DNA of 39,436 nt from Opitutaceae bacterium (GTDB lineage: Bacteria; Verrucomicrobiota; Verrucomicrobiia; Opitutales; Opitutaceae): assembly GCA_017988885.1 (NCBI GenBank), contig JAGNQV010000007.1:1-39436 (forward strand). The letters run 5' to 3'. Below, in pieces: positions 7,602 to 35,281 of this stretch. The position numbers and the translations under genes were made by a program. A model generated the notes under the pieces. The model saw nothing but the letters and a program-made list of their open reading frames with translations. It was not told the origin of the DNA and did no database searches. The stretch's first letter is position 1, and the number at the start of each line of letters is the position of its first letter.

Positions 7602-7605
7602 ACGC

Positions 7606-12183: not shown

Positions 12184-14589
12184 TCAGCGTAGGCTTACCG
12201 TCTGCCCGGGCCGGAGGCGGGTGGAGCGGCGGCCGACGGTGATGGTGGCCGGGGTGCGGCCATTATTGTGCGCGACCAAGGCGGTGGGTGAGGCGGTGAT
12301 CTCCACCTCGCCGGTGACCGCGACCTGCGCCAATACGGAACGTAACACGGCTTGGCCGGCGGGTAGTGCGAGGTGGTAGGTGATGTGCGCGTTGGTGATT
12401 CTCGCGGTGCCCTCAAACACCGGGATGCGGGTGAAGGCGTCGCGGCGGGCGCGCAGGCGGGCCATGACGGGAGTTGAACCGAAACAGGCCGCGGCGAGAT
12501 GGCCGTGGGCGATCAGGCCGACGCAGTCGGCCGGGGCGGTAAGTTCGAGCAGGGTGGCGCGGGCGGTTTGCCGGGCGGTCTGGCCGGGCAGGATGAGCGC
12601 ACTGAGGCTCGCGATGGTGGTGCCCGAGGCCAACCGGCGGGCCGCCGGTGTGCGGCTCAGCGTCAGATCATCCGCGGTGGCCCACCAAGTAGAGAAAAAG
12701 TGCCGGTTGTGGTAAACGGTCTCGCCGGTGCCGCGGAAAACGAAGCCGAGGCGATCATCCACGTTCAGCCAGCCGGGTTGGGCGTAGGTGTGAACGATGT
12801 CGCTGGCGGGGTCGGGGCTGACGAAGCCGGCGAAGCGGGTCGCGGCGCCCGGCGTGGTGACGATGCGGTAGCCGTGGCAATTGTCCGGCATCGCGCTAAA
12901 GTGCTCGTTGATGATGCGCAGAAAGCCTTGGGCGACGTCGCTCACCACCACGTTTTCCTGTGCGATCAAACGCTCGCAGGACAAGGCGGTGCCGTCGGGC
13001 AGGCCGGCGTAGAGCACTTGCTGCCGCACGGAGCCTTGGGCGCGATCCATCACCAAGGCGGCCGCGAAGCTGTGCTGCGCGGTGGCGATATGCACGGAGA
13101 CCTCCTCCTGGCTGTCCGGGCGGTCCTGCACCGTAACACGACCGAGCCAGGAATGAGAGGCGGGTGCCACGGTCTGGATGCCGTCGGTGGTGAGCGGCAG
13201 TGCCATCTGGCAGTTGCGCCACGAGAAGGAAGTCTGGCCGCGGGGATGGCGTTGAAACACGAAACCGGAATGCGGATACACTTTCACGCCGCGCAGCTTG
13301 CGTTCCAAGGTCGGGCGGGGCGTCGGGGCGGGGCCGTCGCCCTGCACCCGGTGGAGCAGATAGGTCCAGGTGGGATTGGCGATCACGCACTCGCGGATGA
13401 CCATGGGGTCCTGCACGTCGTGACAAACTGCGGCTACGGCCGGGTCAACCATGCGACCGCCGTGACTGGCCTGGCGTTCGGCGAGGGTCCGCACGGCCAT
13501 CCGCTCGAAACGTGCGGCATCGGAATCGCGCAGCATGACGGCGGCGGCGGCGTGGGTCATGGTGCCGGGGTCGGTGAAAAGGTAGGGCCAGTCCATGCCC
13601 TGCACCGGATGCAGGGACCCGGTGCGATCCGTGGTCAGTTTCAACTGCGCGTAGATTTTAGCGCGATTGAAGTAGGCTTGGGGCGGCAGTTTTTGTCCGT
13701 AGGCACCGAGGATGACGCCAAGGACTCCGGTGAAATGCACCGAGGCGCCGGTATAGTTGGGGTGCACCATGCCGTGGTTTTCCGCCATGAAATCGGGCAA
13801 AGCGGTGAAGGTCTTTCCGGTCCATTCCGCCACGGTCTGGCCGTCCGCCAACGGCTGCAGGTTCTTGGCGTCCTGCGGGGCGGCGGCGGTGGAAAACATC
13901 CAGCGGCGGGCAGCGGCCGCCCACGCCGGCGCGGTCGGTGAGTTGCCCAGCACGCAGGCCACGGAGGCGAGGCCGACGGAGGTCCAGCCATTTTCCTCCA
14001 TTTGCGTGTCCAGATAAACGCCATTTTTGGGGTCCATGGTGCCGAACCTCTCCGCATAGTCGGCATGCACCCGACCGATCATCGCCCAGGTTGCTTCATC
14101 CACGGCATCACCCAGCAACAGGGCCACGATGGCGAGTCCCGCCACGGTGGTGCCGCACTGACTTTCCGGGAAGAACCCCTTGCCCCGTTCACCCCACTTG
14201 CGTCCGAAGTTCTCGGGCCGGCCCAGGCCCTGGGCGGGGCGCACACAATCCGGCGGACCAGAGTCATGGGTGAAACAAAGGTAGCGCAACGCTTGGCGGG
14301 CGATCGTGCGCAGTTCTTGGCGGGAACAACCGCCGACCTTAGGATTGTATTCAGGTGAGCTGGCGGCCGCGGCAAAAGCAATGGCACCGGCCAGGGTCTC
14401 GATGCCATACCAATGACACCCGCCGAGAAAATGTCCGCAGTCGGGCCGGTCGGGCCACGTGGCGAACAGGCCGCGGCCAATGGGGATCCAGCGCTCGATG
14501 ATCCTGAGATATTGGCGGCTGAGAGCTGTTTCGGAGCGCAGCTTGAGGCGGCGTTGCTGGGTAAGAGCGGGGTCGGAAAGCGCGGTCAT
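12184..14589 (-). CDS. Large uncharacterised protein, probable alpha/alpha-toroid plus beta-sandwich lyase-like fold
   Basis: An 801-residue protein I cannot name. The first half is rich in helices with Trp, His and Tyr patches (CGHFLGGCHWYGIETLAGA, DTQMEENGWTSVGLASVACV, DFMAENHGMVHPNYTGASVH), spaced like an alpha/alpha toroid. The second half is strand-like (SGFVFQRHPRGQTSFSWRN, SHSWLGRVTVQDRP) and ends in small beta repeats. This layout is that of polysaccharide lyases of the heparinase, chondroitinase or alginate lyase type, and the conserved-looking ENHGMVHPNY block is a candidate active site. There is no signal peptide or membrane segment. The next gene in the same direction, the PAS protein, starts 74 bp downstream of its stop. 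Alternative: a glycosidase or a non-catalytic homologue. Confidence 0.7.
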   Translation of the reverse strand: MTALSDPALTQQRRLKLRSETALSRQYLRIIERWIPIGRGLFATWPDRPDCGHFLGGCHWYGIETLAGAIAFAAAASSPEYNPKVGGCSRQELRTIARQALRYLCFTHDSGPPDCVRPAQGLGRPENFGRKWGERGKGFFPESQCGTTVAGLAIVALLLGDAVDEATWAMIGRVHADYAERFGTMDPKNGVYLDTQMEENGWTSVGLASVACVLGNSPTAPAWAAAARRWMFSTAAAPQDAKNLQPLADGQTVAEWTGKTFTALPDFMAENHGMVHPNYTGASVHFTGVLGVILGAYGQKLPPQAYFNRAKIYAQLKLTTDRTGSLHPVQGMDWPYLFTDPGTMTHAAAAVMLRDSDAARFERMAVRTLAERQASHGGRMVDPAVAAVCHDVQDPMVIRECVIANPTWTYLLHRVQGDGPAPTPRPTLERKLRGVKVYPHSGFVFQRHPRGQTSFSWRNCQMALPLTTDGIQTVAPASHSWLGRVTVQDRPDSQEEVSVHIATAQHSFAAALVMDRAQGSVRQQVLYAGLPDGTALSCERLIAQENVVVSDVAQGFLRIINEHFSAMPDNCHGYRIVTTPGAATRFAGFVSPDPASDIVHTYAQPGWLNVDDRLGFVFRGTGETVYHNRHFFSTWWATADDLTLSRTPAARRLASGTTIASLSALILPGQTARQTARATLLELTAPADCVGLIAHGHLAAACFGSTPVMARLRARRDAFTRIPVFEGTARITNAHITYHLALPAGQAVLRSVLAQVAVTGEVEITASPTALVAHNNGRTPATITVGRRSTRLRPGQTVSLR

Positions 14590-14645: not shown

Positions 14646-15743
14646 TCAGGTCTGGGCGGCTTCGCGCAGGAGCGTCTCGTCGGTGGCGCGCTCGCCTTCA
14701 TTCGTGGGCAGGGGCGGCACGTAACGATAGCCGGGGTCCTGGCGCTGGCGGTGCAAGATGGGCAGCAATTCCTGCCAAGTCGCCCAAAGCCCATGGGGCG
14801 TGGGCGGGAGGTCGTGTTTGATGGCTTCGTGCAAGTGCGGCAGATTGTAGAAAGGCACGGCGGGGAACATGTGATGCTCCACGTGATATTGCATGTTCCA
14901 GTAGCAGAAGGCCGGAAACCAGCCGCAGGTGTAGGTGCGGGTGTTCAGGCGAAAGTCAGGCACATCGGACGACAGGCCGACATGTTGCGCGGCCCCGCAC
15001 AAGAGGACGAACCACGAGCAATACATGCAGCCAAAATTCACGATCACGATGAGGAACCAGTGCCCGGTGACGATGAACGCGGTGGCGAGGGCAAGGTGAC
15101 CGAGCAAGACGACCCGGGCCCAACGGCGGATTTCGCGACGGCTTTTGGTGTCGGACTCAGGCACGACGCGCTGGAGCCATTGAGCCCGGAAGAAGCCGTC
15201 GTAGCGGAGATTGCCAAATGCGGCGGCGACCCAGAAGCGGAGGAGCTTGAGCAAGCCGGTGGGACTGAAGGTGAGCACGTTGAGGACGAATTTCACACCG
15301 TGCCAGTCGAGCCCGAGCGGCTGCATGATTTCGCCATCATGCTCGGTATGGACGGTGACCTGATGATGCCGGATGTGGCTCGCGCGGTAACCGGTGGGAT
15401 CAAACCAGCCGAGGAAAGAGTAGATTTTTAGAAAAAACGTATTCCAAAACTGGGTGGCGAAAGGCGTCTTGTGACAGAGCTCATGGCAGGCGATGCCGCC
15501 GAAGAAACTGCCGATGGTGCCATGCGCGAAGAGCGCGAGGAGCAGGAGCGGGAGGGCGGTCGGCCAGTTGAGTGAGTTGAGGTGGCGGAAGGCGAGGTAG
15601 GCGAGGGTGCCGGTGAGGACGAAAAGCGCGAACTGCGGGATGACCTGCAGGAAGGCGCGCGCGTCGCTCTTGCGCATGAGCTCGCTCATGAGGGCCTTGT
15701 CGACCTTGCAGCGATACCAGTTGATCTTGATGGATTCGGTCAT
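14646..15743 (-). CDS. Membrane fatty acid desaturase
   Basis: A 365-residue integral membrane desaturase. Three histidine boxes that hold the di-iron centre are visible: HELCH (87-91), HIRHH (123-127) and HVEHH (287-291). Hydrophobic segments lie at about 34-54, 61-86, 100-115, 212-232 and 230-252. The final region, YHVEHHMFPAVPFYNLPHLH, is typical of the fatty acid desaturase / sphingolipid hydroxylase-type family. It inserts a double bond (or hydroxyl) into an acyl chain using O2 and reduced ferredoxin or a similar donor. A purine-rich AGGGAG lies about 11 bp before the ATG. It is unrelated to the sugar genes in function. Confidence 0.92.
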   Translation of the reverse strand: MTESIKINWYRCKVDKALMSELMRKSDARAFLQVIPQFALFVLTGTLAYLAFRHLNSLNWPTALPLLLLALFAHGTIGSFFGGIACHELCHKTPFATQFWNTFFLKIYSFLGWFDPTGYRASHIRHHQVTVHTEHDGEIMQPLGLDWHGVKFVLNVLTFSPTGLLKLLRFWVAAAFGNLRYDGFFRAQWLQRVVPESDTKSRREIRRWARVVLLGHLALATAFIVTGHWFLIVIVNFGCMYCSWFVLLCGAAQHVGLSSDVPDFRLNTRTYTCGWFPAFCYWNMQYHVEHHMFPAVPFYNLPHLHEAIKHDLPPTPHGLWATWQELLPILHRQRQDPGYRYVPPLPTNEGERATDETLLREAAQT

Positions 15744-15842: not shown

Positions 15843-16235
15843 TCAGTGCGGCATCTGGGTTTTCCGATCGCGGATCAAAATGGTTAATGCGCCGAAGCCG
15901 AAAAGAGCGTTAACCACCGTGTCGATGTAGTCCAGCGTGCCGGGTTCACCGAGCAGCGTCTTGATGTCCATGTAGAAACAGAGCAGCGATGATATGCTGA
16001 TAAATGCCAGCACGGCGATGCGCCCGAGCGAATTTTCGGCCTGGCGGGCTACGGCGCACATGACGCCCTCGGCGATGAACATGATGCCGAGAAATTGAAA
16101 GATAAGGTTACTCAGCTCGGTCGTGGCGGCACCAAAGCCGTAAGCATTGGCCGCGCCTTGCGGGGCGAGGAAATACCAACAGCCGTAGATCAGGTTGGCG
16201 ATCATGGCGATCGTGAGAAAGGGGCGAGTTTTCAT
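15843..16235 (-). CDS. Small four-helix membrane protein of unknown function
   Basis: A 130-residue protein with four predicted membrane helices: about 7-25 (LTIAMIANLIYGCWYFLA), 42-62, 70-90 (GRIAVLAFISISSLLCFYM) and 105-122. Short charged tails flank them, and it ends in RDRKTQMPH. No catalytic residues stand out and I do not recognise a named family. It is transcribed in the direction of the desaturase, 99 bp upstream of it, so the two may share a transcript. The start at 16235 follows a CCCCACTCCCT leader that lacks a Shine-Dalgarno site. Confidence 0.72.
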   Translation of the reverse strand: MKTRPFLTIAMIANLIYGCWYFLAPQGAANAYGFGAATTELSNLIFQFLGIMFIAEGVMCAVARQAENSLGRIAVLAFISISSLLCFYMDIKTLLGEPGTLDYIDTVVNALFGFGALTILIRDRKTQMPH

Positions 16236-16451: not shown

Positions 16452-18356
16452 TTAAAGGTCCACGTAGCGGAGTTTCCACTGGGTGCCGAAAAAGAAGCGG
16501 CGGCCGACGATGGGGCCGGTGATCTCGATGGCTTCGACGGGCATCTTCCACGCGAGGGTCACGGCGCAGGTGTCGGGGTTCACTTGGTAGACCCCATGCA
16601 TCATCACGAGGTAAACGGTGCCGTCGGCGGCGCGGCGCAGGGAGTCATAGCTGAATTCGGGCAGGCGGCCCAACTCGGGCGGCACGACGGCGGAGGCGAG
16701 CACGCAGCGGCGGGCAGGGTCGATGAGCGCGACCTGCATCGGCGCAGGTTGAGCGCCGTAATCCTTCACGATGTAGTGCGGACGGGCGCTCAGCGCATAG
16801 ATGAGGCCGTCGCGACCGGCGGGGACGAACGAGCAAATGTCGGCGATGTCTTTTAGGCCGAAGTCGCCGGCGTGGACGAGTTGGTCGTTGATCGTGTCCC
16901 AGAGCGCGAAGGCGCCGGCGGGGCGTTGCACGGAGACGCCGCTGCCGGGCTCGGTGCCGAGGCCGATGAGGAGTTGCTTCAACTCGGGCAGGTAGAGCAG
17001 GCAGTTGGGCGACGTGTCGGCGAGCACTTCGCGGTGGAAGCCGCGCGTGGCAGTTTTCGGGTCATACCAACCGAGCGGGCCGCCGCGGATGCCGTAGTTG
17101 GGCGCGGAGCCGATCCAGAGTTTGCCGTCGGGGGTGGCGACCATCGCGTGCGGGCGGAAGGCGATCTCGGCGGCGTCGAGCGGGCCGATGTCGAGGGGAT
17201 TGCTGCCGGGGCCGGTGCCGAAATTGTAGGGCTTCTTGGGATCGTAGAGCGTAATGCGCGCGGCGGGGTAGGAAGAGAGGGCGATGAGGCCGTCGCCGTA
17301 GCCGGCCATGGAGTAGGCCTCGCCGAGGGCGAGGTTGCACTGGCCGAGGTTGACGAGCCCGGTGCCGTCGAGTTCGCAGCGGAAGAGGTGCTCCGGCAAA
17401 ATGCTCGAACCGTAGATGCGCTGGTCGGGGCCGAGGCCGATCATGAAGATCTGCGTGCCGCCGCCTTGCCAATCGAGCGTGAGGTGGCGGGTGGGGATGG
17501 CCGGGTCGGTGTTCGTGAGCGCGAGTTTGCGGGGCGCACCGTTGTCCTCCGCATAGGCGGCGCGCCAGCCGCCGGGCATGGTGATGTCCACCTGGTAGCC
17601 GTGCTTGTAGGTGGCGTGGATGCCGGGCATCTCGGGCGGCACGGTTTCCACGGGCGTGGCGGTGAGGCCGGTGAAACGAAACTTGCCCAGATCGCTGTCG
17701 AGGTAGAGGAGACCGTCGGTGCCCTTGAAGAAGAACCAGCGGCGGGCGTGGTTATTGGGGTCGTCGAGCACGGGGCCGACGGGGACATGCGTGCCGGTGG
17801 CCGGGTCGAACAGGATGATGCGGTGGCGAGTGGTCTTCGTCTGCGTCGCGATGGTGCCGTCGTCGCCGCAGAGGGGGTAGAGATATTTGTCAGTCTCATC
17901 GAGACGACCGAAGCGCGTGAACTCGCCGGTGGCAGGATGGTAGCGCGTGAGGCAGCAGCCGGGATAGGCGCCGATCCAGATCATGCCGTCGGGCGACTCC
18001 TGGATGCCGGTGATGAACGTCGCCTGTCCGGGATGAATGGCGCCGAGGTCCTCGATGCCGCGCTCAGGTTGGGCGGGATCGAAGCGGTGGAGGTGGCCGT
18101 CCCATGCGGTGCCGAACCAAAGCTGGCCCGTGCGCAGGCTGCGGATGGCGCTGATGGGGTAGTCGGCACCCTTGGCGGGGGCGTTGAACTGGCGGCATTT
18201 TCCCGTGGTAAGATCAATATCGATGACGAGGAGGCCGCCGTTGTTTTGGCCCATCGAGCCGATGAGCGAGGGGCGGCCGTCGGCGGTCGCGCCGGGGTGG
18301 AGGCGAATCCAGTTGATGCCTTTGACGGGCGTGCCGATTTCGTGGAAGGAGTTCAT
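16452..18356 (-). CDS. Tandem beta-propeller protein, paralogue 4 of 4
   Basis: A 634-residue protein made of about 12 beta-propeller-like repeats, enough for two propellers. Repeat cores such as RYHPATGEFTRFG and PDGMIWIGAYPGCCLTRYHP recur every 45-60 residues; they recall the Reg_prop and streptogramin-lyase-like patterns. The N-terminal signature shared by all four is G-x-P-V-K-G-x-x-W-x-R-L-H-P-G followed by MGQNNGG. The C-terminus is GPIVGRRFFFGTQWKLRYVDL. There is no signal peptide or membrane helix. The start is ATG 18356, overlapping the stop of the upstream paralogue as TGATG, so translation is coupled; the longer open frame to 18419 lies inside that gene. This copy, like paralogue 3, lacks the 28-bp palindrome insertion. 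Function unknown: a lyase, a glycan-binding or a sensory role are all possible. Confidence 0.85.
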   Translation of the reverse strand: MNSFHEIGTPVKGINWIRLHPGATADGRPSLIGSMGQNNGGLLVIDIDLTTGKCRQFNAPAKGADYPISAIRSLRTGQLWFGTAWDGHLHRFDPAQPERGIEDLGAIHPGQATFITGIQESPDGMIWIGAYPGCCLTRYHPATGEFTRFGRLDETDKYLYPLCGDDGTIATQTKTTRHRIILFDPATGTHVPVGPVLDDPNNHARRWFFFKGTDGLLYLDSDLGKFRFTGLTATPVETVPPEMPGIHATYKHGYQVDITMPGGWRAAYAEDNGAPRKLALTNTDPAIPTRHLTLDWQGGGTQIFMIGLGPDQRIYGSSILPEHLFRCELDGTGLVNLGQCNLALGEAYSMAGYGDGLIALSSYPAARITLYDPKKPYNFGTGPGSNPLDIGPLDAAEIAFRPHAMVATPDGKLWIGSAPNYGIRGGPLGWYDPKTATRGFHREVLADTSPNCLLYLPELKQLLIGLGTEPGSGVSVQRPAGAFALWDTINDQLVHAGDFGLKDIADICSFVPAGRDGLIYALSARPHYIVKDYGAQPAPMQVALIDPARRCVLASAVVPPELGRLPEFSYDSLRRAADGTVYLVMMHGVYQVNPDTCAVTLAWKMPVEAIEITGPIVGRRFFFGTQWKLRYVDL

Positions 18357-20320
18357 CAGGATAAAGTGAGGGCGCGGAGGCGCCAACCGGTGGCGAAGTA
18401 TAACGTATTTCCGACCCATGGGCCGGGCACGTCGATTTGATCGCCCTCGGGTGCGCGCCAGATGATCTCGGTTTCGCAGGTGCCGGGCTTGAGGCGGTAA
18501 AGCGTTTTCTCGGTGATGCCATAGACCCCGCCCGGTCCGGGAAAGATGCAGAACTGGGTGTGCAGCGCGATGGGTCCGAGGTCGGCGGCGAGCGGGGCGG
18601 TGGCGACGACCTTGCGAGCGGCGGGATCGATGAGAGCGAGGCGCGGCTGCAACTTGGCTGCGCCCATTGTGTCCTCGGCGAAGCGGTTGTTGGCGATGAA
18701 GGCATAGACGAGCCCGTCGGCGGCAGGAGCGAAGGCCTGCACGCTGCCGAGACCGGCGAGTCCGAAATCACCGGCGTAGAGTTGGTGGTCCCCGATGGGA
18801 TCCCAGAGCATAAAGGCGCCGTGCTGAGCGCGGATTTTCGTGCCGGTGCCGCTCTCGATACTCATGCCCACGAGCAATTGCTGTAGCGCAGGGAGCCAGA
18901 GGAGCGCGACGGGCGAACAATCGGTCACGAGGTTGCGATGGCTGGCATGCGCGCCGGTCTTTGGGTCGACCCAAGCGAGTGTGCCGCCGAACAAGCCATA
19001 GTCGGGGAGCGAGCCGACCCACGCGCGTTCAGGGACGACGGTGCCGTCGGCTTTTTTCAACTCGGGCACGATGGCGAGACCCACGGGGCGGATGCCGACA
19101 TCGTCGAGCCGGCCAATGTCACGCGGGTTGGCGGTGGCATCGGTGCCGAAGCGATAAGGCTTTGCGGGATCGAAAAGCGAAATGTGCGACTTCGGATACG
19201 ACGTGATGATCATCGTGCCGTCGCTGAAATTGCCGAGGGCGTAGGCCTCGCCCATCATCACGCTGCAGCGGCCGAGATTGACCATGCCGGAACCATCGGG
19301 CGCGGTGCGGAAGAGATGCTCGGGCAGAAAGCTGGAGCCGTAGAGGTTGCCGTCGGCACCGAGGTGGATGACGAAGAGATTTGAGCCGCCGCCTTCCCAG
19401 TCGAGTTCGAGGGTGCGGGGTGCAACGGTTGGGTTGGTGCTGGTGAGGAGAATTTTTTTGAAAAGTCCGGCGCCTTCAGAACCATCGGCCCAGTTGGCGA
19501 TCAGGCCATCGGGCATGGGCAGCACTTCCTGGTAGGCGTGTTGGTGGGTGGCGTGGATGCCGGGCATCATGGCCGGCAGGAAAGTGACGGGCTCGAGCGC
19601 CATGCCGCTGACGCGGAACTTGCCCTCATGGGTGTCGAGGTAGAGCCGGCCGTCGAGGCCCTTGAAGAACAGGATGTGCTGCGACTTGTCCTCGGGATTG
19701 ATGATCGGGCCGACCGTCTGGTGCACTCCGGTGGCGGGATCGAACACGACGAGGTGCGGGTGGAGGACTTTGGCAAGCGCGGCGATGGTGCCGTCGCTGC
19801 CGACGTGCGGGTAAAGGTATTTATCCTCGGCATCGAGCGGGCCATAGCGCTTGAACTCGCCGGTGGCCGGATCGTAACGCGTGAGGCTGCAGCCCGGATA
19901 GCCGCCGATCCAGAGTTGGCCGTCAGGCGCCTCCGCGATACCGGTGGGAAAAATAGCCTGGTCGCCATCAATGACGCCGAGGTCTTCCAGTCCGCGCTCG
20001 GGATGTGACGGATCGTAACGGAGAAGATGTCCGTCGGTGTGCGTGCCGATGTAGAGCAGGCCCGTGCTCGGACTGCGGATGGCGGAGATGGGATACTGCT
20101 GCAACTGGCCGGGGGCGTTGAACTGGCGGCAGTGACCGGTGGCGAGGTCGATATCGAGGGCGAAAAGTCCGCCGTTGTTCTGGCCCATGGTCGCGAGGAG
20201 GGAGGCCTTGCCATCGGGGCCGCGACCGGGATGCAGCCGCACCCAGTTGACGGCTTTGACCGGCACGCCGAGGTCGCGCACGGTGATGATGGAAACAGGG
20301 GAAGCAGGGGCGGCAGTCAT
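18356..20320 (-). CDS. Tandem beta-propeller protein, paralogue 3 of 4
   Basis: A 654-residue paralogue of its three neighbours. Visible repeat cores: SLTRYDPATGEFKRYG, LVVFDPATGVHQTVG, ISLFDPAKPYRFG, DGQLWIGGYPGCSLTRYD. The N-terminal signature is LGVPVKAVNWVRLHPG with MGQNNGG; the C-terminus is GPWVGNTLYFATGWRLRALTLS. Residues SYPKSHISLF and SLPDYGLFGGTLAWVDP match YPEARLSVY and SAPDYGLIGGTLAWYEP in paralogue 1. It has no export signal. The stop overlaps the start of paralogue 4 (TGATG). The 134-bp gap to paralogue 2 contains an AACCGCTAAT hairpin. It is the closest intact relative of the decayed remnant at 16273-16395. Biochemical role unknown. Confidence 0.85.
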   Translation of the reverse strand: MTAAPASPVSIITVRDLGVPVKAVNWVRLHPGRGPDGKASLLATMGQNNGGLFALDIDLATGHCRQFNAPGQLQQYPISAIRSPSTGLLYIGTHTDGHLLRYDPSHPERGLEDLGVIDGDQAIFPTGIAEAPDGQLWIGGYPGCSLTRYDPATGEFKRYGPLDAEDKYLYPHVGSDGTIAALAKVLHPHLVVFDPATGVHQTVGPIINPEDKSQHILFFKGLDGRLYLDTHEGKFRVSGMALEPVTFLPAMMPGIHATHQHAYQEVLPMPDGLIANWADGSEGAGLFKKILLTSTNPTVAPRTLELDWEGGGSNLFVIHLGADGNLYGSSFLPEHLFRTAPDGSGMVNLGRCSVMMGEAYALGNFSDGTMIITSYPKSHISLFDPAKPYRFGTDATANPRDIGRLDDVGIRPVGLAIVPELKKADGTVVPERAWVGSLPDYGLFGGTLAWVDPKTGAHASHRNLVTDCSPVALLWLPALQQLLVGMSIESGTGTKIRAQHGAFMLWDPIGDHQLYAGDFGLAGLGSVQAFAPAADGLVYAFIANNRFAEDTMGAAKLQPRLALIDPAARKVVATAPLAADLGPIALHTQFCIFPGPGGVYGITEKTLYRLKPGTCETEIIWRAPEGDQIDVPGPWVGNTLYFATGWRLRALTLS

Positions 20321-20377
20321 GAAACGGAGTTATTGAACAGGGAGGGCACGGATTGAAATGAGACAGGGCAGGGAGGA

Positions 20378-20441
20378 AACCGCTAATTCACGCTAATGAG
20401 CGCTGATGCGGATTAGCGAAAATGAGCGTTTATTAGCGGTT
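20378..20441. repeat. AACCGCTAAT hairpin element, copy A
   Basis: AACCGCTAAT (20378-20387) and ATTAGCGGTT (20432-20441) form a perfect 10-bp inverted repeat. The interior carries further CGCTAAT and AGCG words, so several nested pairings are possible. The plus strand then has AAGTTTTTTG, a T6 run, but the flanking genes are on the minus strand, where no U-run follows. It sits in the 134-bp gap between paralogues 3 and 2; a shorter relative lies at 22562-22615. Confidence 0.8.
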
Positions 20442-20454
20442 AAGTTTTTTGATA

Positions 20455-22494
20455 TCACTCCGGCAATGTGAGTTCGCGCAGGCGCCAGCCGGTGGCGAAG
20501 TAGAACTGACGGCCGACGATGGGGCCGACGACGTCGATCACATTGGGCGACGAGGCGGTGAGCCAGACGGTGCCGGAACGCTTTTTGGGCGCATCGAGTT
20601 GCCACACGCGCTCGACGTCGCAGGTGCCGGGTTTGATGCGGAAGACACAATAACCGGTGGCGCCATAAACGATGTCGCCTGGACCGACGCGCAAAGAAAA
20701 ATAGCCGTGCCACGAGAGCGGGCCGTAGTCCTCGGGCAGCCACGCGGAAGCGACGACGGTGCGCCGGGCCGGATCGATGAGCGCGAGGCGCGGGCGAATT
20801 TCCGGGGCACCGGCGGAGAGGATGTGGTCGCCGCGTCCAAGGAGGGCGTAAACGAGACCGTGGCCGTCGGGCGCGAGCGAAGTGACGTCGGCGAGGTTGT
20901 CGAGACCGAGGTCGCCGGACCAGACGAGTGCGTCCTTGGTGGGATCCCAGAGGGCAAAGGCGCCGTTGAGCCGGTCCTTTTTCACCGGCATGCCGGTGCC
21001 GGTCTCGATGCTGAGGCCGAGGAGGATCTGCTTCAACTCCGGCAGATAAAGTCCTGCCGCGGGCGATAGATCAGTGACAACAATACGGTGAGATTTTTTC
21101 TCGCCGGTCTGCGGGTTGAACCAAGCGAGCGGTCCGCCGTAGAGGCCGTAGTCGGGACTCGAGCCCATCCAGAGTTTTCCGTCAGGCGTGGTGAGCAGGA
21201 CATTGGGCCGGAAGCCGATGCCATCGAGCCGGCCGAGGTCGCGCGGATTGTCGTTGGGGCCGGTGCCGAAGTGCAGCGGTTTCGTGGGATCATAGACGGA
21301 CAGCCGTGATTCAGGGTAGGAACCGAGCCAGACCTTGCCGTCGAGGGTTGCCATCGAATAGGCCTCACCGCCGGCGAAGGTGTGTTCGCCGAGATCTTCC
21401 ACGGTGGCGGTTGCTGGGCCCTCCGTCGCCAAGCCGATGGAGGGCGATTTTTCCGCGCCGGGTGTGGCGCGGAAAAGTCGGTTAGGCATGTAGCTTGAGC
21501 CGTAGAGCGCGCCGTCGGGTCCGGGGTGGATAATGTGCAGGTTCGAACCGCCGCCGACCCAGTCGAGGTGCAGCCGGCGGCTCGGGATGAGCGGGTCGCG
21601 ATGGGTCAGGAGAATGTTTCGTGGCGTGCCCACGCCGTTGATCCCGTCGTCGAGGAAGTGCGCGGTCCAGCCGCCGGGCATTTCGGCGGGTGCCTGGTAG
21701 GCGTGTTTGTAAGTGGCATGGATACCCGGCTGCGGCGCAGGAATCTCGTCGATGGCGGTGAGGTTCAGGCCGTCGACGCGGAATTTACCGGCGTGCGAAT
21801 CGAGATAGAGCCGGCGGTCAGTGCCTTTGAAGAATTTCAGGAATTGCGCACGGTCGCTGGCGTCGGTGACGGCGGGTCCGGCCTCACGGGCCTCGCCGGT
21901 GCGTGGATCGAAGAGCAGCAGGTGGGGCCGGCCGAATTTCACGATGCCGGCGAGCGAGCCGTCATCTCCGGCGAGCGGATAAAGGTAGTTGTCCGTGTCG
22001 TCCTTTTTCCCAAAATGCGTGAAGGCTCCGGTGGCCGGGTCGTATTGGGTGAGGCTGGCACCGGGATAAGTGCCGATCCAGAGCGTGCCATCGGGCGCCT
22101 CGGTGAGGCCAAGCGGAGCGATGTCGCCCTCGGCTGGATAGATGCGACCAAGGTCTTCAAGCCCGCGGGCAGGGTGATTGGCGTCGAAGCGGTGGAGATG
22201 TCCGTCCCAGCCCGAGACGATGTAGAGTATGCCCGTCAGCAAGGAACGGAACGACGCGGCGGAAAACGTGGAGTTCACCGGGTCGTGCACGGCATATTGC
22301 GTGCAGTGGCCGGTCGCGAGGTCGATAGCGACGACGAAGAGGCCTTCGTGGTTCTGGCTCATCGAGGCGAGCAGCGAGGCGCGGCCATCGGCGGTCTGGC
22401 CGGGATGCAGGCGGGCCCAACTCACGCCTTTGACGGGGATGCCGAGGTCGCGAAGTGGAATAGGCGAAACCGGCGAAGTGCGAGTGAGGGTCAT
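20455..22494 (-). CDS. Tandem beta-propeller protein, paralogue 2 of 4
   Basis: A 679-residue propeller paralogue, closest to paralogue 1: both end GPIVGRQFYFATGWRLR-x-LTLPE and share AFALWDPTKDALVWSGDLGLD. Repeat cores include SLTQYDPATGAFTHFG, LLLFDPRTGEAREAG and LSVYDPTKPLHFG. The N-terminal signature is LGIPVKGVSWARLHPG with MSQNHEG. No signal peptide or membrane segment is present. At 21418-21445 a 28-bp palindrome is inserted in frame, giving SPSIGLATEGP; paralogues 3 and 4 lack this stretch. The start MTLTRTSPVSPI is kept because it lines up with the other N-termini. A 132-bp gap with two repeats separates it from paralogue 1. Function unknown. Confidence 0.86.
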   Translation of the reverse strand: MTLTRTSPVSPIPLRDLGIPVKGVSWARLHPGQTADGRASLLASMSQNHEGLFVVAIDLATGHCTQYAVHDPVNSTFSAASFRSLLTGILYIVSGWDGHLHRFDANHPARGLEDLGRIYPAEGDIAPLGLTEAPDGTLWIGTYPGASLTQYDPATGAFTHFGKKDDTDNYLYPLAGDDGSLAGIVKFGRPHLLLFDPRTGEAREAGPAVTDASDRAQFLKFFKGTDRRLYLDSHAGKFRVDGLNLTAIDEIPAPQPGIHATYKHAYQAPAEMPGGWTAHFLDDGINGVGTPRNILLTHRDPLIPSRRLHLDWVGGGSNLHIIHPGPDGALYGSSYMPNRLFRATPGAEKSPSIGLATEGPATATVEDLGEHTFAGGEAYSMATLDGKVWLGSYPESRLSVYDPTKPLHFGTGPNDNPRDLGRLDGIGFRPNVLLTTPDGKLWMGSSPDYGLYGGPLAWFNPQTGEKKSHRIVVTDLSPAAGLYLPELKQILLGLSIETGTGMPVKKDRLNGAFALWDPTKDALVWSGDLGLDNLADVTSLAPDGHGLVYALLGRGDHILSAGAPEIRPRLALIDPARRTVVASAWLPEDYGPLSWHGYFSLRVGPGDIVYGATGYCVFRIKPGTCDVERVWQLDAPKKRSGTVWLTASSPNVIDVVGPIVGRQFYFATGWRLRELTLPE
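21418..21445. repeat. 28-bp palindrome inserted in frame in paralogue 2
   Basis: The arms GCCCTCC (21418-21424) and GGAGGGC (21439-21445) flank a 14-nt centre containing TCGCC-AAG. Read in the gene's frame it encodes PSIGLATEG. The same element with small changes is at 23608-23635 and 31211-31238. Confidence 0.85.
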
Positions 22495-22506
22495 GAGGCT
22501 GAATTT

Positions 22507-22537
22507 TTAACCATGGATTGCACGGATGAACACCGAT
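22507..22537 (+). repeat. CCACGGAT-type interspersed repeat, copy 4
   Basis: TTAACCATGGATTGCACGGA with TGAACACCGAT after it, a diverged copy of the 31-bp unit seen at 3883-3913, 4930-4960 and 10605-10635. It lies 12 bp before the start of paralogue 2 (minus strand). Confidence 0.72.
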
Positions 22538-22561
22538 GGAGATGAAATCAGACAGGGATAA

Positions 22562-22615
22562 AACCGCTAGTCTGTGCTAATGCGGATAAGCGAAAATGCG
22601 CGTTCATTAGCGATT
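22562..22615. repeat. AACCGCTAAT hairpin element, copy B
   Basis: AACCGCTAGT (22562-22571) and ATTAGCGATT (22606-22615) are the diverged ends of a 54-bp relative of 20378-20441. Shared inner words are ATGCGGAT, AGCGAAAATG and CGTT-ATTAGCG. The same spacer sequence thus recurs behind both paralogue 1 and paralogue 2, which suggests that spacer and gene were duplicated together. Confidence 0.75.
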
Positions 22616-22626
22616 AAGTTTTGATT

Positions 22627-24663
22627 TCACTCCGGCAGGGTGAGGCTACGCAGGCGCCAGCCGGTGGCGAAGTAGAACTGACGGCCGACGATGGGGCCGA
22701 CGACGTCGATGACGTTGGGGTCGGTGGCGGTGAGCCAGACGGTGCCGGTGCGGGGCTTGGGGTAGGATTGTTGCCAGATGCGCTCGACCGCACAGGTGCC
22801 GGGCTTGATGCGAAAGATGCAGTGGGCCGTGGCGCCATAGACCATGCCGCCGGGTCCGACCCGCAGGGAAAAATGACCGTGCCACGACAACGGACCGAAG
22901 TCCTTCGGCAACCAAGCGCTGGCGACGACGGTGCGTTTTACCGGATCGATGAGAGCGAGGCGCGGGGTGATTTCGGGTGCGCCTTGGGATAGAATGTGAT
23001 CACCGCGACCGAGCATGGCATAGACTAAGCCGCCGCCTGCGGGGGCGAAGGCGGTGATGTCGGCCAGGCGGTCAAGCCCGAGATCGCCGGACCAGACGAG
23101 TGCGTCTTTCGTTGGATCCCAGAGCGCAAAGGCACCGTCGAGGCGTTTTACTTTGGTGCCGGTGCCGCCTTCGATGCTAAGGCCGATGAGGATTTGCTGC
23201 AGGTCTGGCAGGTAAAGCATCGCCGAAGGCGAGGTTTCGGGGACGATGGCGCGGTGGGATTTTTTCGCGCCGGTCTTTGGCTCATACCACGCGAGCGTGC
23301 CGCCGATGAGGCCGTAGTCGGGCGCGGAGCCAACCCAGAGCCGTCCACCCACCTTTGTCGGGCCTGCGGCGGGCAGGTCCGGGGTGGCGATCATCGCGTT
23401 GGGCCGGTAGCCGATAGGGTCGAGCCGGCCGAGATCGCGGGGGTTGTCGCCCGGAGCGTTGCCGAAATGCCGGGGTAGCGCGGGGTCGTAAACGGAGAGC
23501 CGCGCCTCGGGGTAGGAGGCGAGCCAGACTTTGCCGTCGAGCATGGCCAGCGAATAGGCCTCGCCCATGGCGAAGGTGTGCTTGCCGATGTCCTCGATCA
23601 CGGTGCTGCCCTCCTTCGCCGGGCCTACGGAGGGCACTTGTTTCACGCCGAGGGCGGCGCGAAACAAGTGATTCGGCATGTAACTCGAGCCGTAGAGGTC
23701 GCCATCGGGACCCACGTCGAAGACGAAGAGATTCGAGCCGCCGCCGACCCAATCGAGCGTGAGCAGGCGCGAGGGCACCGATTGATCGATGTTGGCGAGC
23801 AGCACCTGACGCGGCGCGCCAGCGCCCACATTGTTGTCGTCTAAAAATTGCGCCGTCCAGCCGCCGGGCATGATGAGGGGCGCCTGGTAACGGTGGGTGC
23901 CGGCGACGGGAATGCCGGCGAGCAGGGCGGGCAGCTCGTCGACGGGGGTGAGGTTCATCCCATCGACGCGGAATTTGCCGGCGTGCGAATCGAGGTAGAG
24001 CCGGCGGTCGGTGCCTTTGACGAGTTTTAGAAATTGCGACTTGTCCGTCGTGTCGAGCAGGGCGGGACCGGCTTCGCGGTGCTCGCCGGTGGCGGGATTG
24101 ATGACGATGAGGTGCGGGCGGACGACCTTGACGATGGCGGCGAGGGAACCGTCGTCGCCGGCGAGCGGGTAAAGATACTGGTCCACGTCGTCCATCTTGC
24201 CGAAACGCGTGAAGTTACCCGTGGCGGGATCGTATTTGATGAGGCGCGCGCCGTTGCAGGTGCCGATCCAGATGGCGCCGTCGTCGGCCTCGGTGAGGCC
24301 GGTGGGAAAGATGGCGCCGTCCGGGTCGAGGGCACCGAGATCCTCGATGCCGCGTTCAGGGTGGTCGGCATCGAAGCGGTGCAGGTGGGCATCCCAGGCG
24401 GAGCCGATGTAGAGGATGCCGGTGCGGGGTGAACGGTAGGCGGCGGTGGTGAAAGTCGAGTTCACCGTATCGCGCACCGGAAACTGCCGGCAGTGGCCGG
24501 TGGACAGGTCGATATCGACGACAAAGAGCCCGCCGTGATTCTGGCTCATCGAGGCGAGCAGCGAGGGCCGGCCGTCGGCGGTGCGACCCGGGTGGAGGCG
24601 GGTCCAGCAAACACCCTTGACGGGAATGCCGAGATCACGGAGCAGAAGCGGGGTGGGGCTCAT
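22627..24663 (-). CDS. Tandem beta-propeller protein, paralogue 1 of 4 (first in the array)
   Basis: A 678-residue paralogue and the first gene of the array. The N-terminal signature is LGIPVKGVCWTRLHPG with MSQNHGG. Repeat cores include LIKYDPATGNFTRFG, LIVINPATGEHREAG, LSVYDPALPRHFG and DYGLIGGTLAWYEPKTGAKKSHR. The start is ATG 24663 (MSPTPLLL); the open frame reaches a TTG at 24708, but ATG aligns with the other copies. There is no export signal. The 28-bp palindrome at 23608-23635 lies in frame (VPSVGPAKEGS), at the same place as in paralogue 2. A 12-residue segment around DLPAAGPTKVGG is extra compared with paralogue 2. It is transcribed divergently from the aminotransferase gene at 24801. 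Confidence 0.86.
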   Translation of the reverse strand: MSPTPLLLRDLGIPVKGVCWTRLHPGRTADGRPSLLASMSQNHGGLFVVDIDLSTGHCRQFPVRDTVNSTFTTAAYRSPRTGILYIGSAWDAHLHRFDADHPERGIEDLGALDPDGAIFPTGLTEADDGAIWIGTCNGARLIKYDPATGNFTRFGKMDDVDQYLYPLAGDDGSLAAIVKVVRPHLIVINPATGEHREAGPALLDTTDKSQFLKLVKGTDRRLYLDSHAGKFRVDGMNLTPVDELPALLAGIPVAGTHRYQAPLIMPGGWTAQFLDDNNVGAGAPRQVLLANIDQSVPSRLLTLDWVGGGSNLFVFDVGPDGDLYGSSYMPNHLFRAALGVKQVPSVGPAKEGSTVIEDIGKHTFAMGEAYSLAMLDGKVWLASYPEARLSVYDPALPRHFGNAPGDNPRDLGRLDPIGYRPNAMIATPDLPAAGPTKVGGRLWVGSAPDYGLIGGTLAWYEPKTGAKKSHRAIVPETSPSAMLYLPDLQQILIGLSIEGGTGTKVKRLDGAFALWDPTKDALVWSGDLGLDRLADITAFAPAGGGLVYAMLGRGDHILSQGAPEITPRLALIDPVKRTVVASAWLPKDFGPLSWHGHFSLRVGPGGMVYGATAHCIFRIKPGTCAVERIWQQSYPKPRTGTVWLTATDPNVIDVVGPIVGRQFYFATGWRLRSLTLPE
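23608..23635. repeat. 28-bp palindrome inserted in frame in paralogue 1
   Basis: The same arms, GCCCTCC and GGAGGGC, with TTCGCCGGGCCTAC in the centre. In frame it encodes PSVGPAKEG. Its position in the protein matches that of the element in paralogue 2. Confidence 0.85.
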
Positions 24664-24800
24664 GGAGAGGAAGGAAAGCGTGGCGAGGCGTTGCAAACCA
24701 AGGGTCAATCAACGCATGGCGGCAACGTGATTTCGAACGGCGCGTTGTTTATTCAACTGTGCGCTTGCCGCGGTGCGGGTTTTTCGGCCAAACCTGCTGC
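24664..24800. promoter_or_regulatory. Divergent intergenic region between propeller array and aminotransferase
   Basis: The 137 bp between two divergent starts must hold both promoters. An inverted pair GCGTTG (24688-24693) and CAACGC (24710-24715) with a 16-nt spacer could be an operator, but its arms are short. No convincing -35/-10 pair was found on either strand. Confidence 0.3.
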
Positions 24801-26039
24801 ATGCCCGCCACGCTCCGCCCCCGTCCCACGCCCGGTCTCGGTGCCGCCTTGATCGGTGCCGAAGAAGAAGCTCTCGTGCTTGATGTCTTGCGCCGCAAGG
24901 AGCCCTTCCGCTACTACGGGGCGGATTTCAAGCCCACGCCGCCCATGGTGGCGCAGTTGGAGAAAGAATTTAGGGAATTTATCGTCACCGAATACGCCTT
25001 GGCTGTCAGCAGCGGCACGGGCGCGCTCGAGGTGGCGCTGGGCGCAATGGGGATTGGTCCGGGCGATGAGGTCATCGTCACGGCCTGGAGCTGGATTTCC
25101 TGTTTCACGGCGATTGTGCGCATGGGGGCGCGGCCGGTGCTGGCCGAGATCGACGACTCGCTGAACCTCAACCCCGACGAGATCAAGCGCCTCGCGACCC
25201 CGCGCACGCGGGCGGTGTTGGTGGTGCATTATCAAGGCGTCGCGGCTGACATGGAGCGCATCGTCCTTGAGGCGCACCGGCGCGGCATCTTCGTGCTGGA
25301 AGATTGCGCGCAGTCGCTGGGCACGCGCTACCGCGGCCGGCAGATCGGCACTTGGGGAGACGTCGCCACTTTCAGTTTTCAAAACAACAAGGTCGCGACC
25401 GGCGGCGAGGGCGGCATGGTCACGACGCGCGACCAGCGCATCTATGAACGCGCCGTGCGGCTCAGTGATTTGGGCAACTACCGGCCCTATCACGCGGCGA
25501 TCGTGCCGCCACACGAACCGGCTTTTGTCGGTGGACAATACCGCATGTCGGAGCTCACGGGCGCGCTGGTGCTCGCGCAACTGCGCAAGGTTGCCGGCAT
25601 GTGGGAGCACTGCCGCAGCCTGCAGGCCCGTATTCTCCCGCGTCTAGCGGGGCTCAAGGGATTGCGGCCGCGTCGGATCCCGGATGCGGCGGGTGATTTT
25701 GGTTTCGAAATTTACCTGTTCATGAACAACGCGGACCACGTAAACCCGTTTCGGGAAAAGCTCGAAGCACGCAACGTGCCCTGCGGCGCACGCACGGGAA
25801 CCTATCCACAATACAACCGCGAATATGTGAAGACGGGGCTCGCGCACCATCCGGCGGCCTCACCTTTCCGCGAGCTCAAGCCCTGGCCGGCGGCCGGCTA
25901 TCGGGCGGAAGATTTTCCGATCACGGAGGACCTGACCAAGCGTTTCCTCGCGCTGCCCTTGGGTGCACTCTACACCGCGGAGGACGCTGAGTATATCGCG
26001 GACGCATTGGTGGCGGTGCACGCGGAAGTCTGCGGCTGA
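24801..26039 (+). CDS. DegT/DnrJ/EryC1/StrS-family PLP aminotransferase
   Basis: A 412-residue sugar aminotransferase-type protein. PLP-binding features: ALAVSSGTGALEVAL (66-80), the Asp in VLEDCAQSLGT (165-174), and the Schiff-base Lys at K197 in SFQNNKVATGGEGG. The family transfers an amino group (usually from glutamate) to a keto-sugar or a keto-cyclitol. The frame is open from a GTG at 24759, but ATG 24801 (MPATLRP) gives the usual N-terminus. It stands alone on the plus strand, divergent from the propeller array and convergent with the SDR gene. A second member of the family is cut by the right edge of the window. A role in making or breaking down an amino sugar is likely; the exact substrate is unknown. 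Confidence 0.93.
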   Translation: MPATLRPRPTPGLGAALIGAEEEALVLDVLRRKEPFRYYGADFKPTPPMVAQLEKEFREFIVTEYALAVSSGTGALEVALGAMGIGPGDEVIVTAWSWISCFTAIVRMGARPVLAEIDDSLNLNPDEIKRLATPRTRAVLVVHYQGVAADMERIVLEAHRRGIFVLEDCAQSLGTRYRGRQIGTWGDVATFSFQNNKVATGGEGGMVTTRDQRIYERAVRLSDLGNYRPYHAAIVPPHEPAFVGGQYRMSELTGALVLAQLRKVAGMWEHCRSLQARILPRLAGLKGLRPRRIPDAAGDFGFEIYLFMNNADHVNPFREKLEARNVPCGARTGTYPQYNREYVKTGLAHHPAASPFRELKPWPAAGYRAEDFPITEDLTKRFLALPLGALYTAEDAEYIADALVAVHAEVCG

Positions 26040-26116: not shown

Positions 26117-26896
26117 CTACTCCCGCCGCCCGAGCATGGCGCCGCCGTCCACCAACAGGGTGGTCCCCGTGATGTAAGCGCCGTCGTCGCTCGCGAGAAA
26201 CAGAAAACTGCCGGCCACTTCCTCCGCCGTGCTCATGCGCAGGAGCGGCACGACTCTGTCCACGATCTTGGCGAAGCGCTTGTCCCGGTCGTAGATTTTT
26301 TTGGTGAGGCCGGCGTAAACCATCCCGGGTGCGACAAGAGCGGCGGTGATGCCGTGCGGGGCGAGTTCCTGCGCGACAATCTTGGCGAGCATCTGTTGGC
26401 CGCCCTTGCTGGTGCAGTAGGACGCGCCGCCGGGCCACGGCATCTCCTGCACCCAAGAACCGGTGAAAAGGATCGTGCCGCGACGGGCGGTGCCCCGGCG
26501 CGGGTTCTTCAGCATGAGCCGCGCGGCGCGCTGGGCGGTGAGAAAACTGCCGGTGAGATTGACCGCGAGGGTGCGCGCCCAGTTTTTCTCCGTGACCTCA
26601 ACGAAGGGCTCGTTGACGACCATGCCGGCGTTGCAGATGGCCGTGTCGAGCCGGCCGAGAAATTTCAGCGCGGCGGCAAACGCACGGTCGAGCGAGGCGG
26701 CACGGGTGACATCGCAGCGCACATAGGCGGCATGGGTGGGATGCAGCGCCCTGGCCGCGGCGCGGCCCCGCGCTGGCGGCAGCATGTCGGCGAGGACGAC
26801 GCGGGCGCCCGCGGCCAGAAAGCGCTTGGCCACGGCCTGACCGATGTCGCCGCAGCCGCCTGTGATAAAAATACCGGTGTGGGCGATGCCTTGCAT
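26117..26896 (-). CDS. Short-chain dehydrogenase/reductase (SDR 1)
   Basis: A 259-residue classical SDR. The cofactor loop is TGGCGDIG (12-19), matching TGxxxGIG; the acidic residue in VVLADM favours NAD(H). NAG is in AICNAGMV, and the catalytic Ser, Tyr and Lys are in LFTGSW and SYCTSKGG. The C-terminus has the usual AEEVAGSFLFLASDDGAYITG with LLVDGGAML. It oxidises a hydroxyl group of a sugar or polyol. It is the last gene of the long minus-strand operon, 4 bp after the UlaG-like gene, so it probably takes part in the same sugar-acid pathway. Substrate unknown. Confidence 0.94.
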   Translation of the reverse strand: MQGIAHTGIFITGGCGDIGQAVAKRFLAAGARVVLADMLPPARGRAAARALHPTHAAYVRCDVTRAASLDRAFAAALKFLGRLDTAICNAGMVVNEPFVEVTEKNWARTLAVNLTGSFLTAQRAARLMLKNPRRGTARRGTILFTGSWVQEMPWPGGASYCTSKGGQQMLAKIVAQELAPHGITAALVAPGMVYAGLTKKIYDRDKRFAKIVDRVVPLLRMSTAEEVAGSFLFLASDDGAYITGTTLLVDGGAMLGRRE

Positions 26897-26900
26897 AAAA

Positions 26901-27731
26901 TTAGAGGGATTTGCTGCCGGTCGGACTCAGGGTGAAACCTTCGCCGACGGTCGGGATGAGCACCTGCGCGGTGCCGCCGAGTTTGCGGTAGGTGTCGGCG
27001 AAGAGCTGCGGATCGAGCGTCTCATAGGCGGGAATCTTTTCCGGAGGCCGTTCCCAGATGAGATGGTGGTGCGGAATGACGGTGCGGGCGTTGAGGTGCC
27101 AGGCGAGGAGGGCAGCCTCGTGGGCGTTCATGTTGCCGACAGAGCCGTTGATGCAGAGGGTGGCGAGCGCCAGCGGGGTGGCGCCGACGGCGCGATGAAT
27201 CCGGGCGTCGTAGTCGGTGTCGCCGGTATGGAAGACGCGCACGCCGCCAAAATCGAGAATCACGCCGAAGGCATCAGGCACTTCCCAGCCAGGCACGCCG
27301 GCTTCGTGGCGGGCGACGATGGCGGTGAGTTTGACGCCATCGAGATCGAGCGTGCCGCCGGGCACGAGTGGGGTGATCTGTTCTTTGGGCACGCCGAGCG
27401 GGATGGCGTGGGACATGGCGCCGGGCGACATGATGAATTTCGCCGTCGGCCGGTGGCGGGCGATGGCGGGAATCGCTTCGGGATCGAGATGATCTTCGTG
27501 CCAGTGCGTGCTAATGACGATGTCGGGCTCGGCTTCGGCTGGCGTCAACGGCGGCGGGAAAGCGCGGCCGAGGCCGAACATTGTCTGCACAATGTCGGAG
27601 AGATACGGATCGATCCAGATTTGGCGACCGGCGGGGGTCTTGAAGATAAAACCGGAGCCGCCGAGCCACCACGCGGCGACCGAGCCGGCGGCGGGGCGAG
27701 CAAGGGCGATCTGGGTGGCGAGCGTGCTCAT
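26901..27731 (-). CDS. UlaG-like metallo-beta-lactamase-fold protein (sugar lactonase-like)
   Basis: A 276-residue metallo-beta-lactamase-fold protein. The metal motif is THWHEDHLDP (75-84: H76, H78, D80, H81). Further ligands lie in FHTGDTDYD and IPHHHLIW. The opening WWLGGSGFIFKTPAGRQIWIDP and the ending ALLAWHLNARTVIPHHHLIW resemble L-ascorbate-6-phosphate lactonase (UlaG). Members hydrolyse sugar lactones or phosphodiesters in the cytoplasm. Its ATG overlaps the stop of the upstream enolase-family gene (ATGA), so the two are translationally coupled. It may open the lactone formed by an SDR before dehydration. It is shorter than UlaG (about 350 residues), so the same substrate should not be assumed. 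Confidence 0.88.
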   Translation of the reverse strand: MSTLATQIALARPAAGSVAAWWLGGSGFIFKTPAGRQIWIDPYLSDIVQTMFGLGRAFPPPLTPAEAEPDIVISTHWHEDHLDPEAIPAIARHRPTAKFIMSPGAMSHAIPLGVPKEQITPLVPGGTLDLDGVKLTAIVARHEAGVPGWEVPDAFGVILDFGGVRVFHTGDTDYDARIHRAVGATPLALATLCINGSVGNMNAHEAALLAWHLNARTVIPHHHLIWERPPEKIPAYETLDPQLFADTYRKLGGTAQVLIPTVGEGFTLSPTGSKSL

Positions 27732-34379: not shown

Positions 34380-34387
34380 GGATTTCG

Positions 34388-34436
34388 GGCTGAGCTTAAT
34401 CGAGGTGCGACCGGGCTGGGCGACTTCCGCTCAACC
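34388..34436 (-). repeat. Spacer hairpin between PhyH copies 2 and 1
   Basis: GGCTGAGC (34388-34395) and GCTCAACC (34429-34436) pair with one mismatch. The 51-bp spacer, with the words TAATCG-GGTGCGACCGGGC, is a close copy of the next spacer at 35226-35275. Confidence 0.7.
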
Positions 34437-35225: not shown

Positions 35226-35233
35226 GGATTTCA

Positions 35234-35281
35234 GGCTGAGCGTAATCGCGGTGCGACCGGGCGGGCGATTTCCGCTCAGCC
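35234..35281 (-). repeat. Spacer hairpin between PhyH copies 3 and 2
   Basis: GGCTGAGCG (35234-35242) and CGCTCAGCC (35273-35281) are perfectly complementary. The right arm overlaps the stop codon of copy 3. The stem is conserved in the other spacer with one change, which hints that it may be functional. Confidence 0.75.

Follow-up and report, generated by a model that had tools for sequence, protein, structure and literature searches.

Four long beta-propeller proteins are encoded side by side in a sugar-gene cluster of an Opitutaceae bacterium, and we asked what such stand-alone propellers do. The window analysed is a stretch of 39,436 nucleotides (contig JAGNQV010000007.1, assembly GCA_017988885.1), in which the four genes occupy positions 16452-24663 of the minus strand. 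Sequence comparison and a structural model revealed a double ring, a short set of invariant residues, an accompanying catabolic module and export signals that change among relatives. The reading that we favour, tentatively and at somewhat less than even probability, is that these proteins bind an acidic sugar between their two rings and, probably, cleave it as tyrosine/arginine lyases.

The four genes form a co-directional array of long paralogues, as the initial annotation of this DNA had proposed. Copy 1 (22627-24663) encodes 678 amino acids from an ATG, or 693 from a TTG at 24708; copy 2 (20455-22494), the copy modelled below, encodes 679; copy 3 (18356-20320) encodes 654; and copy 4 (16452-18356) encodes 634 from an ATG, with a reading of 655 amino acids open too. 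The copies align end to end at pairwise identities of 49-72%, with copies 1 and 2 being 72% identical and copy 4 sharing 49-50% with copies 1-3 over the full length. All residues of the two signatures that had been noted in them, one N-terminal (G-x-P-V-K...W-x-R-L-H-P-G...M-x-Q-N) and one C-terminal (G-P-x-V-G...T-x-W-x-L-R), are invariant in the four copies. These identity levels, and orthologues that match over the full length in tens of further genomes, exclude chance similarity.

To place the array in a wider context, a profile built from the four window copies was used to search other genomes. It matched 39 loci in named genomes, nearly all of them Opitutaceae or Opitutales metagenome-assembled genomes; the few outliers belonged to Kiritimatiellota or were single contigs assigned to Bacteroidetes and Acidobacteria, possibly through a binning error. 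A tree of 72 members placed each window copy in a separate, well supported group together with orthologues found elsewhere: copy 1 grouped with copy 1 of locus L033, copy 3 with copy 2 of L017, and copy 4 with copy 4 of L007, while copy 2 is 84% identical to copy 1 of L027. Array order is also preserved between genomes, so that window copies 2, 3 and 4 correspond in the tree to copies 1, 2 and 4 of L007. Since each copy groups with orthologues elsewhere and the order is retained, the four are old paralogues, and the tree rules out a recent tandem duplication as their origin. Across genomes, arrays hold one to four such paralogues. Plasmid-borne homologues with 24-38% identity to a window copy were found in Streptomyces, Mesobacillus and Paenibacillus; two of these three Gram-positive proteins have an extra C-terminal region, and the Paenibacillus one carries CBM_4_9. 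The phage records searched gave no matches, and the literature searched held no description of the family. The window's own genome also holds a fifth relative, a distant one, which makes up the C-terminal portion of a 979-amino-acid protein (L005:379-3318). The N-terminal part of this protein matches glucuronoyl-esterase/dienelactone-hydrolase families and is an alpha/beta hydrolase with a GHSLGG motif, and a class III aminotransferase gene adjoins the fusion gene.

The fold was modelled with AlphaFold2 on copy 2 with 65 family sequences, which yielded a confident prediction (pLDDT 92.2, pTM 0.91). Blades and rings were assigned from the strand order of this model: ring 1 (residues ~24-312) has six blades (24-69, 75-117, 125-163, 171-205, 219-247 and ~263-309) and ring 2 (~319-676) has seven (319-370, 377-422, 432-469, 477-527, 537-585, 601-631, and 655-676 with strand 14-18). 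The model and the Foldseek matches thus bear out the earlier suggestion of two propellers per chain; the propeller repeats on which it was based stand, but their count, given as about 12, is better read as 13 blades (6 + 7). An arrangement with ring 2 inserted into ring 1 was tried and rejected: residues 206-536 folded alone gave a pTM down to 0.75, with ~170 residues matching known rings. This poor fold arises because the piece cuts across both rings, and the 6 + 7 order was adopted instead. Ring 2 superposes on the single ring of virginiamycin B lyase (Vgb), which has similar repeat wording, over 289 residues (root-mean-square deviation 2.4, Z 29.4), and many unrelated propellers superpose about as well (Z 27-29). 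Because this single-ring match spans model residues 11-679, and from the strand order, the N-terminal strand appears to close ring 2, as it does in PorZ.

The nearest known architectures are glycan-binding proteins. Foldseek placed BT4673 and BT4663, periplasmic sensors of hybrid two-component systems, at the top (E 2e-14 to 1e-12, 11-13% identity), and BT4663 ranked first in the PDB both with the window-family profile (3.3e-9) and with an independent profile of three Gram-positive relatives (6.6e-8), whereas a PDB sequence search with one copy gave no matches. These sensors share with the window family two propellers per chain, Reg_prop repeats and a sugar-related setting. The window family differs in its ~12% identity to them, in one apparently six-bladed ring, in its gene arrays beside a catabolic module and in having no kinase, membrane helix or Y_Y_Y domain detected. 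PorZ of the Porphyromonas type IX secretion system also has two propellers, the second closed by an N-terminal strand (PMC5121618), a closure that the strand order of the copy 2 model suggests as well, and is a soluble glycan-binding protein (PMC8545088). It differs in its 7 + 7 blades, its C-terminal sorting domain and its role in secretion, and the lists of sequence and fold matches did not include it; the type IX sorting domain is not present in copy 2, whose last blade ends at residue 676 of 679 in the model. Structures of PL24, PL25, PL42 and SMP-30 were not near the top of the fold searches, which is not evidence against those families.

Family models gave a consistent picture. Pfam Reg_prop exceeded its cut-off (20.4 bits) in copy 4 (30.9 bits) and copy 2 (25.5 bits), with copies 1 and 3 below it, and no other Pfam or NCBIfam family reached its cut-off in the copies. 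The initial annotation had likened the repeats to those of Reg_prop sensors and had noted that a kinase part is lacking. Pfam, the PDB profiles and Foldseek support the resemblance; no kinase/regulator or Y_Y_Y match was found among the Pfam families listed for 65 members, and the window copies have no hydrophobic helix. Sub-threshold matches to Vgb_lyase occurred in 33/65 members and to SMP-30/gluconolactonase in 12/65, the best window copy scoring 13.8 bits against the Vgb_lyase cut-off of 50. Pfam SGL gave no match in the window copies and a best E of 6.7e-4 within the weak matches of the 12 members. For the PL22 Pfam family, no match was listed up to E = 10 in the window copies, in a search whose HMMER filters drop most weak ones.

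We then asked which residues are kept throughout the family. In 23 members chosen by distance (from Opitutaceae, Kiritimatiellota, other Verrucomicrobiota, Streptomyces, Mesobacillus and Paenibacillus), the only strictly invariant residues other than glycine and proline were Tyr170, Tyr393, Arg429 and Tyr449 in copy 2 numbering (23/23), and Asn416 was kept in 22. Tyr170 (minus-strand codon 21985-21987) lies in ring 1, in the D-A loop before blade 4. The others are in ring 2: Tyr393 (21316-21318, minus) at the end of strand b, Arg429 (21208-21210, minus) in the D-A loop and Tyr449 (21148-21150, minus) in the B-C loop. The initial annotation had suggested looking for conserved polar residues on one propeller face, and all four are indeed assigned to ring entry sides, with Tyr393, Arg429 and Tyr449 belonging to the neighbouring blades 2 and 3 of ring 2. 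Conservation is limited to these few polar entry-face residues and does not extend to broad surfaces. In the model, the four residues probably mark a functional site.

The composition of this set narrows the possible chemistry. Across the 23 members, no position is an invariant His or Glu, and conserved Asp occurs only in PDG/WDP turns. This speaks against a glycoside hydrolase with two catalytic carboxylates, against a metal site of SMP-30 type and against the His-His-Asp motif seen in PL24/25/42. Likewise, the paired catalytic carboxylates of two-propeller glycoside hydrolases (e.g. GH74) were not found in these members, and none of the catalytic signatures of known propeller enzymes was detected. 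An arginine with several tyrosines suits carboxylate recognition and possibly tyrosine-based beta-elimination. The annotation had offered a new enzyme family, such as lyases, or ligand-binding proteins; the entry-face Tyr and Arg residues fit either and single out neither.

The cellular location of the family proved variable. None of the four window copies showed a signal peptide or membrane helix: stop codons lie 0-4 codons upstream of the starts of copies 1-3, and the upstream readings of copy 4 contain no signal peptide. Across the tree, however, a Sec-type signal peptide, called by a simple rule and not by SignalP, directly precedes the start of the conserved domain in 35/72 members, including copy 1 of L027 despite its close identity to window copy 2. 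Mixed arrays, in which some copies have a signal peptide and others do not, were seen in L009, L010, L018, L019 and L020, and the tree requires at least 11 changes of targeting state (66 scored rows). All three Gram-positive homologues have clear signal peptides. The description of these proteins as cytosolic therefore holds for the four window copies but not for the family, about half of which carries a signal peptide by that rule, and the signal peptide that the annotation had named as evidence against its proposal is present in close orthologues while absent from the window copies themselves. Because targeting varies in this way among relatives, the fold works on both sides of the membrane, and "cytosolic" applies to the copies of this lineage only. 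A comparable variation was noted in the heparinase II/III-like partners: those of several other genomes bear twin-arginine-type signal peptides and the one in the window (8614-10596) bears none, paralleling the change in propeller targeting.

The propellers travel with a catabolic module consisting of a divergently encoded DegT protein, two amidohydrolases (c8 and c9), an SDR-type "epimerase" (EPIM) and a DHDPS-family aldolase (DHDPS). The DegT protein next to the array (DegT-1) is divergent from the propellers in 23 loci (the window and 22 others) and belongs to one subfamily with the motif VLDVLRRKEPFRYYG. In G001, a genome of the same genus, the order is GlcNAc-2-epimerase, M20, DHDPS, EPIM, c9, c8, a second DegT protein (DegT-2), DegT-1, four propellers and desaturase. 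The window contig ends inside DegT-2, and a 6.3-kb contig of the same genome (C143) starts with c9, followed by EPIM, DHDPS, M20 and GlcNAc-2-epimerase; for this reason the module is, judging by gene order, very probably complete in the window genome and broken by the assembly. The EPIM gene on this contig is frame-shifted or mis-assembled, reading as two pieces (417-1196 and 1301-1678; L082:417-1678, G000:C143), and relatives have intact copies. In a distant genome (G180; L088), propeller pieces, c9, c8, DegT, EPIM and DHDPS are successive on one contig, and near the Streptomyces, Mesobacillus and Paenibacillus propellers lie EPIM (44-48% identical to the Opitutaceae one) and DHDPS (55-60%). 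Among 388 genomes of the phylum, the propeller was found in 34, EPIM in 96 and DHDPS in 85; EPIM was present in 32 of the 34 propeller genomes, against 96/388 overall (Fisher p 1.6e-19, with relatedness not corrected for). In Alphaproteobacteria, Planctomycetota and other actinomycetes, EPIM and DHDPS also occur together where no propeller was seen nearby, beside GNAT, Gfo/Idh/MocA, sugar isomerase or ABC genes.

EPIM (L024:3262-4299 and relatives), which nearly always travels with a DHDPS-family protein, keeps the GxGGKMG nucleotide-binding motif and carries EYAxxC in place of the YxxxK usual in SDR enzymes. It had no PDB chain match at 1e-3; DHDPS matched only generic DapA-type enzymes, and the amidohydrolase only ACMSD/resorcylate-decarboxylase-type proteins. 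An oxidative uronate pathway (uronate dehydrogenase, galactarolactone isomerase and KDG-type dehydratase) for EPIM, amidohydrolase and DHDPS was unsupported by these matches. A sialic-acid-like pathway, considered in view of nearby BNR_2, SSF, DHDPS, GlcNAc 2-epimerase and ROK genes, is possible, with nothing specific to it.

What, then, would the propellers contribute to this module? They are most simply explained as its substrate-handling part, and we infer from the evidence above what kind of ligand is bound, that the two entry faces oppose each other and that catalysis occurs. An acidic sugar or oligosaccharide would be held between the two ring entry faces, with Arg429 pairing with the substrate carboxylate and Tyr170, Tyr393 and Tyr449 lining the pocket. 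The substrate would then, probably, undergo cleavage by beta-elimination in which a tyrosine serves as base/acid, and the product could pass to DegT, the amidohydrolases, the SDR-type enzyme and the DHDPS-type aldolase. The old paralogues, with the same core and different surroundings, may serve different linkages or compartments. An enzymatic role is suggested by the cytosolic copies without signalling parts, by the esterase-like fusion and by the extra C-terminal regions, and also by the Streptomyces and Mesobacillus stretches, where, among the module genes shown, no candidate enzyme other than the propeller is secreted. The lyase chemistry is suggested by the invariant Arg/Tyr set, which resembles that used by lyases: PL42, which like PL24 and PL25 shares the propeller fold, uses Arg and Tyr as charge neutralisers (PMC10951650). 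Several points weigh against this reading. The His-His-Asp motif on which PL24/25/42 rely (PMC10951650) is missing from this family, and these lyases have a single ring, unlike the double-ring window family; no family member has a known activity; the nearest architectures, BT4663 and PorZ, are glycan binders and not enzymes (PMC5121618, PMC8545088); the nearness of the four invariant residues comes from the strand order of the model; and the propeller-free EPIM-DHDPS pairs accompany amino-acid-type transporters, so that the pathway start need not be a glycan.

The evidence for a Tyr/Arg lyase and for a pure binder is nearly balanced. It is a serious possibility, though not a probable one, that the propellers perform no chemistry themselves and only bind, carry or present an acidic sugar, as PorZ delivers anionic lipopolysaccharide. 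In BT4663, disaccharides are reported to bind to both propellers at their entry faces (PMC5121618), the best PDB profile and fold matches are this sensor and BT4673, PorZ, with two propellers and the N-terminal closure that the strand order suggests here, binds a glycan (PMC5121618, PMC8545088), and the classical catalytic residues are not invariant. A pure binder fits less well with the window copies, whose sequences indicate a cytosolic location and contain no domain for signalling or transport, and the esterase-like fusion (one case) and the extra C-terminal region in two Gram-positive members are habits of enzymes. We consider it unlikely that the family acts instead on the small molecules of the module, as a lactonase, isomerase, esterase or Vgb-like C-O lyase. 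The UlaG-like and amidohydrolase-type hydrolases of the module, the Vgb_lyase and SMP-30/gluconolactonase matches and the fit of ring 2 to Vgb would agree with this; those matches, however, lie under curated cut-offs, unrelated propellers superpose similarly, and there is no invariant Glu, Asp or His for a metal or acid-base role. Least probable, and by our estimate very improbable, is a scaffold or regulatory role of the kind that many WD40 propellers have, in which the proteins would keep pathway enzymes or the membrane desaturase together. Eukaryotic scaffold propellers are numerous among the Foldseek matches, and the desaturase is co-localised in 19 loci, but export signals that come and go would not be tolerable for a cytosolic scaffold, and conservation keeps to the few polar entry-face residues and does not cover broad surfaces.

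Returning to the lyase reading, its fullest form is possible but doubtful: an undescribed family of double-propeller enzymes, probably acidic-sugar lyases with a Tyr/Tyr/Arg/Tyr site between facing rings, would perform the entry step of a DegT-amidohydrolase-SDR-aldolase pathway in several phyla, with paralogues on either side of the membrane. The double-propeller architecture itself is already known from sugar sensors (BT4663) and a glycan carrier (PorZ). What is new is its stand-alone form in arrays of old paralogues, with labile targeting and tied to an uncharacterised catabolic module across phyla. The module points to a pathway without description in the literature searched, and the four invariant residues offer a short testable list for its key step. 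If the propellers are enzymes, they would represent a new family of propeller enzymes in a phylum, Verrucomicrobiota, that is specialised in polysaccharide degradation.

The remaining genes of the window agree with its designation as a sugar-gene cluster. The stop codon of copy 3 and the start of copy 4 overlap by 1 base (TGATG), which argues for a single transcript, and the copies are probably co-transcribed. Three genes follow them downstream on the minus strand. These encode a hydrophobic protein of 130 amino acids (15843-16235; also in L035), an FA_desaturase-family membrane enzyme (14646-15743; PF00487, 1.4e-30) that follows the propellers in those 19 loci, and an 801-amino-acid protein with no Pfam or PDB match (12184-14589) that is common to L007, L016 and L035 beside propellers. 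On the plus strand are a ROK-family kinase/regulator (7585-8532), the heparinase II/III-like protein (8614-10596; PF07940, 7.8e-11; local similarity to oligoalginate lyase 3a0o) and DegT-1, a DegT/DnrJ/EryC1 aminotransferase family protein (24801-26039; PF01041, 1.1e-77). The minus strand continues with an SDR oxidoreductase (26117-26896), a UlaG-like metallo-beta-lactamase-fold hydrolase (26901-27731), two enolase-superfamily proteins, the first of sugar-acid dehydratase type (27728-28921) and the second nearest in NCBIfam to gluconate/galactonate dehydratase, below cut-off (28952-30133), the C-terminal (30233-31321) and N-terminal (31282-32118) subunits of a transketolase, another SDR oxidoreductase (32165-32938), a GNAT acetyltransferase (33081-33575) and three tandem PhyH-family dioxygenases of 264 amino acids each (33585-36070), single copies of which accompany the propeller module in other genomes. 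DegT-2 (38591-39436, minus), cut by the contig end, is preceded by two amidohydrolase genes in G001. Neighbours shared with other loci also include a 272-amino-acid protein, an SSF symporter, one or two heparinase II/III-like proteins, ROK, PhyH, two enolase-superfamily enzymes, the UlaG-like hydrolase, SDR and GH38. A BNR_2 (sialidase-like) protein without a signal peptide is encoded at 6318-7601 of the window, and another BNR_2 protein adjoins the DegT-propeller block in L009, L010, L019 and L020. Upstream of the module in seven loci lie genes for a response regulator and for a 650-amino-acid protein (L036:4271-6223) that has a cyclic-nucleotide-binding domain and a weak match to a family 2B encapsulin shell.

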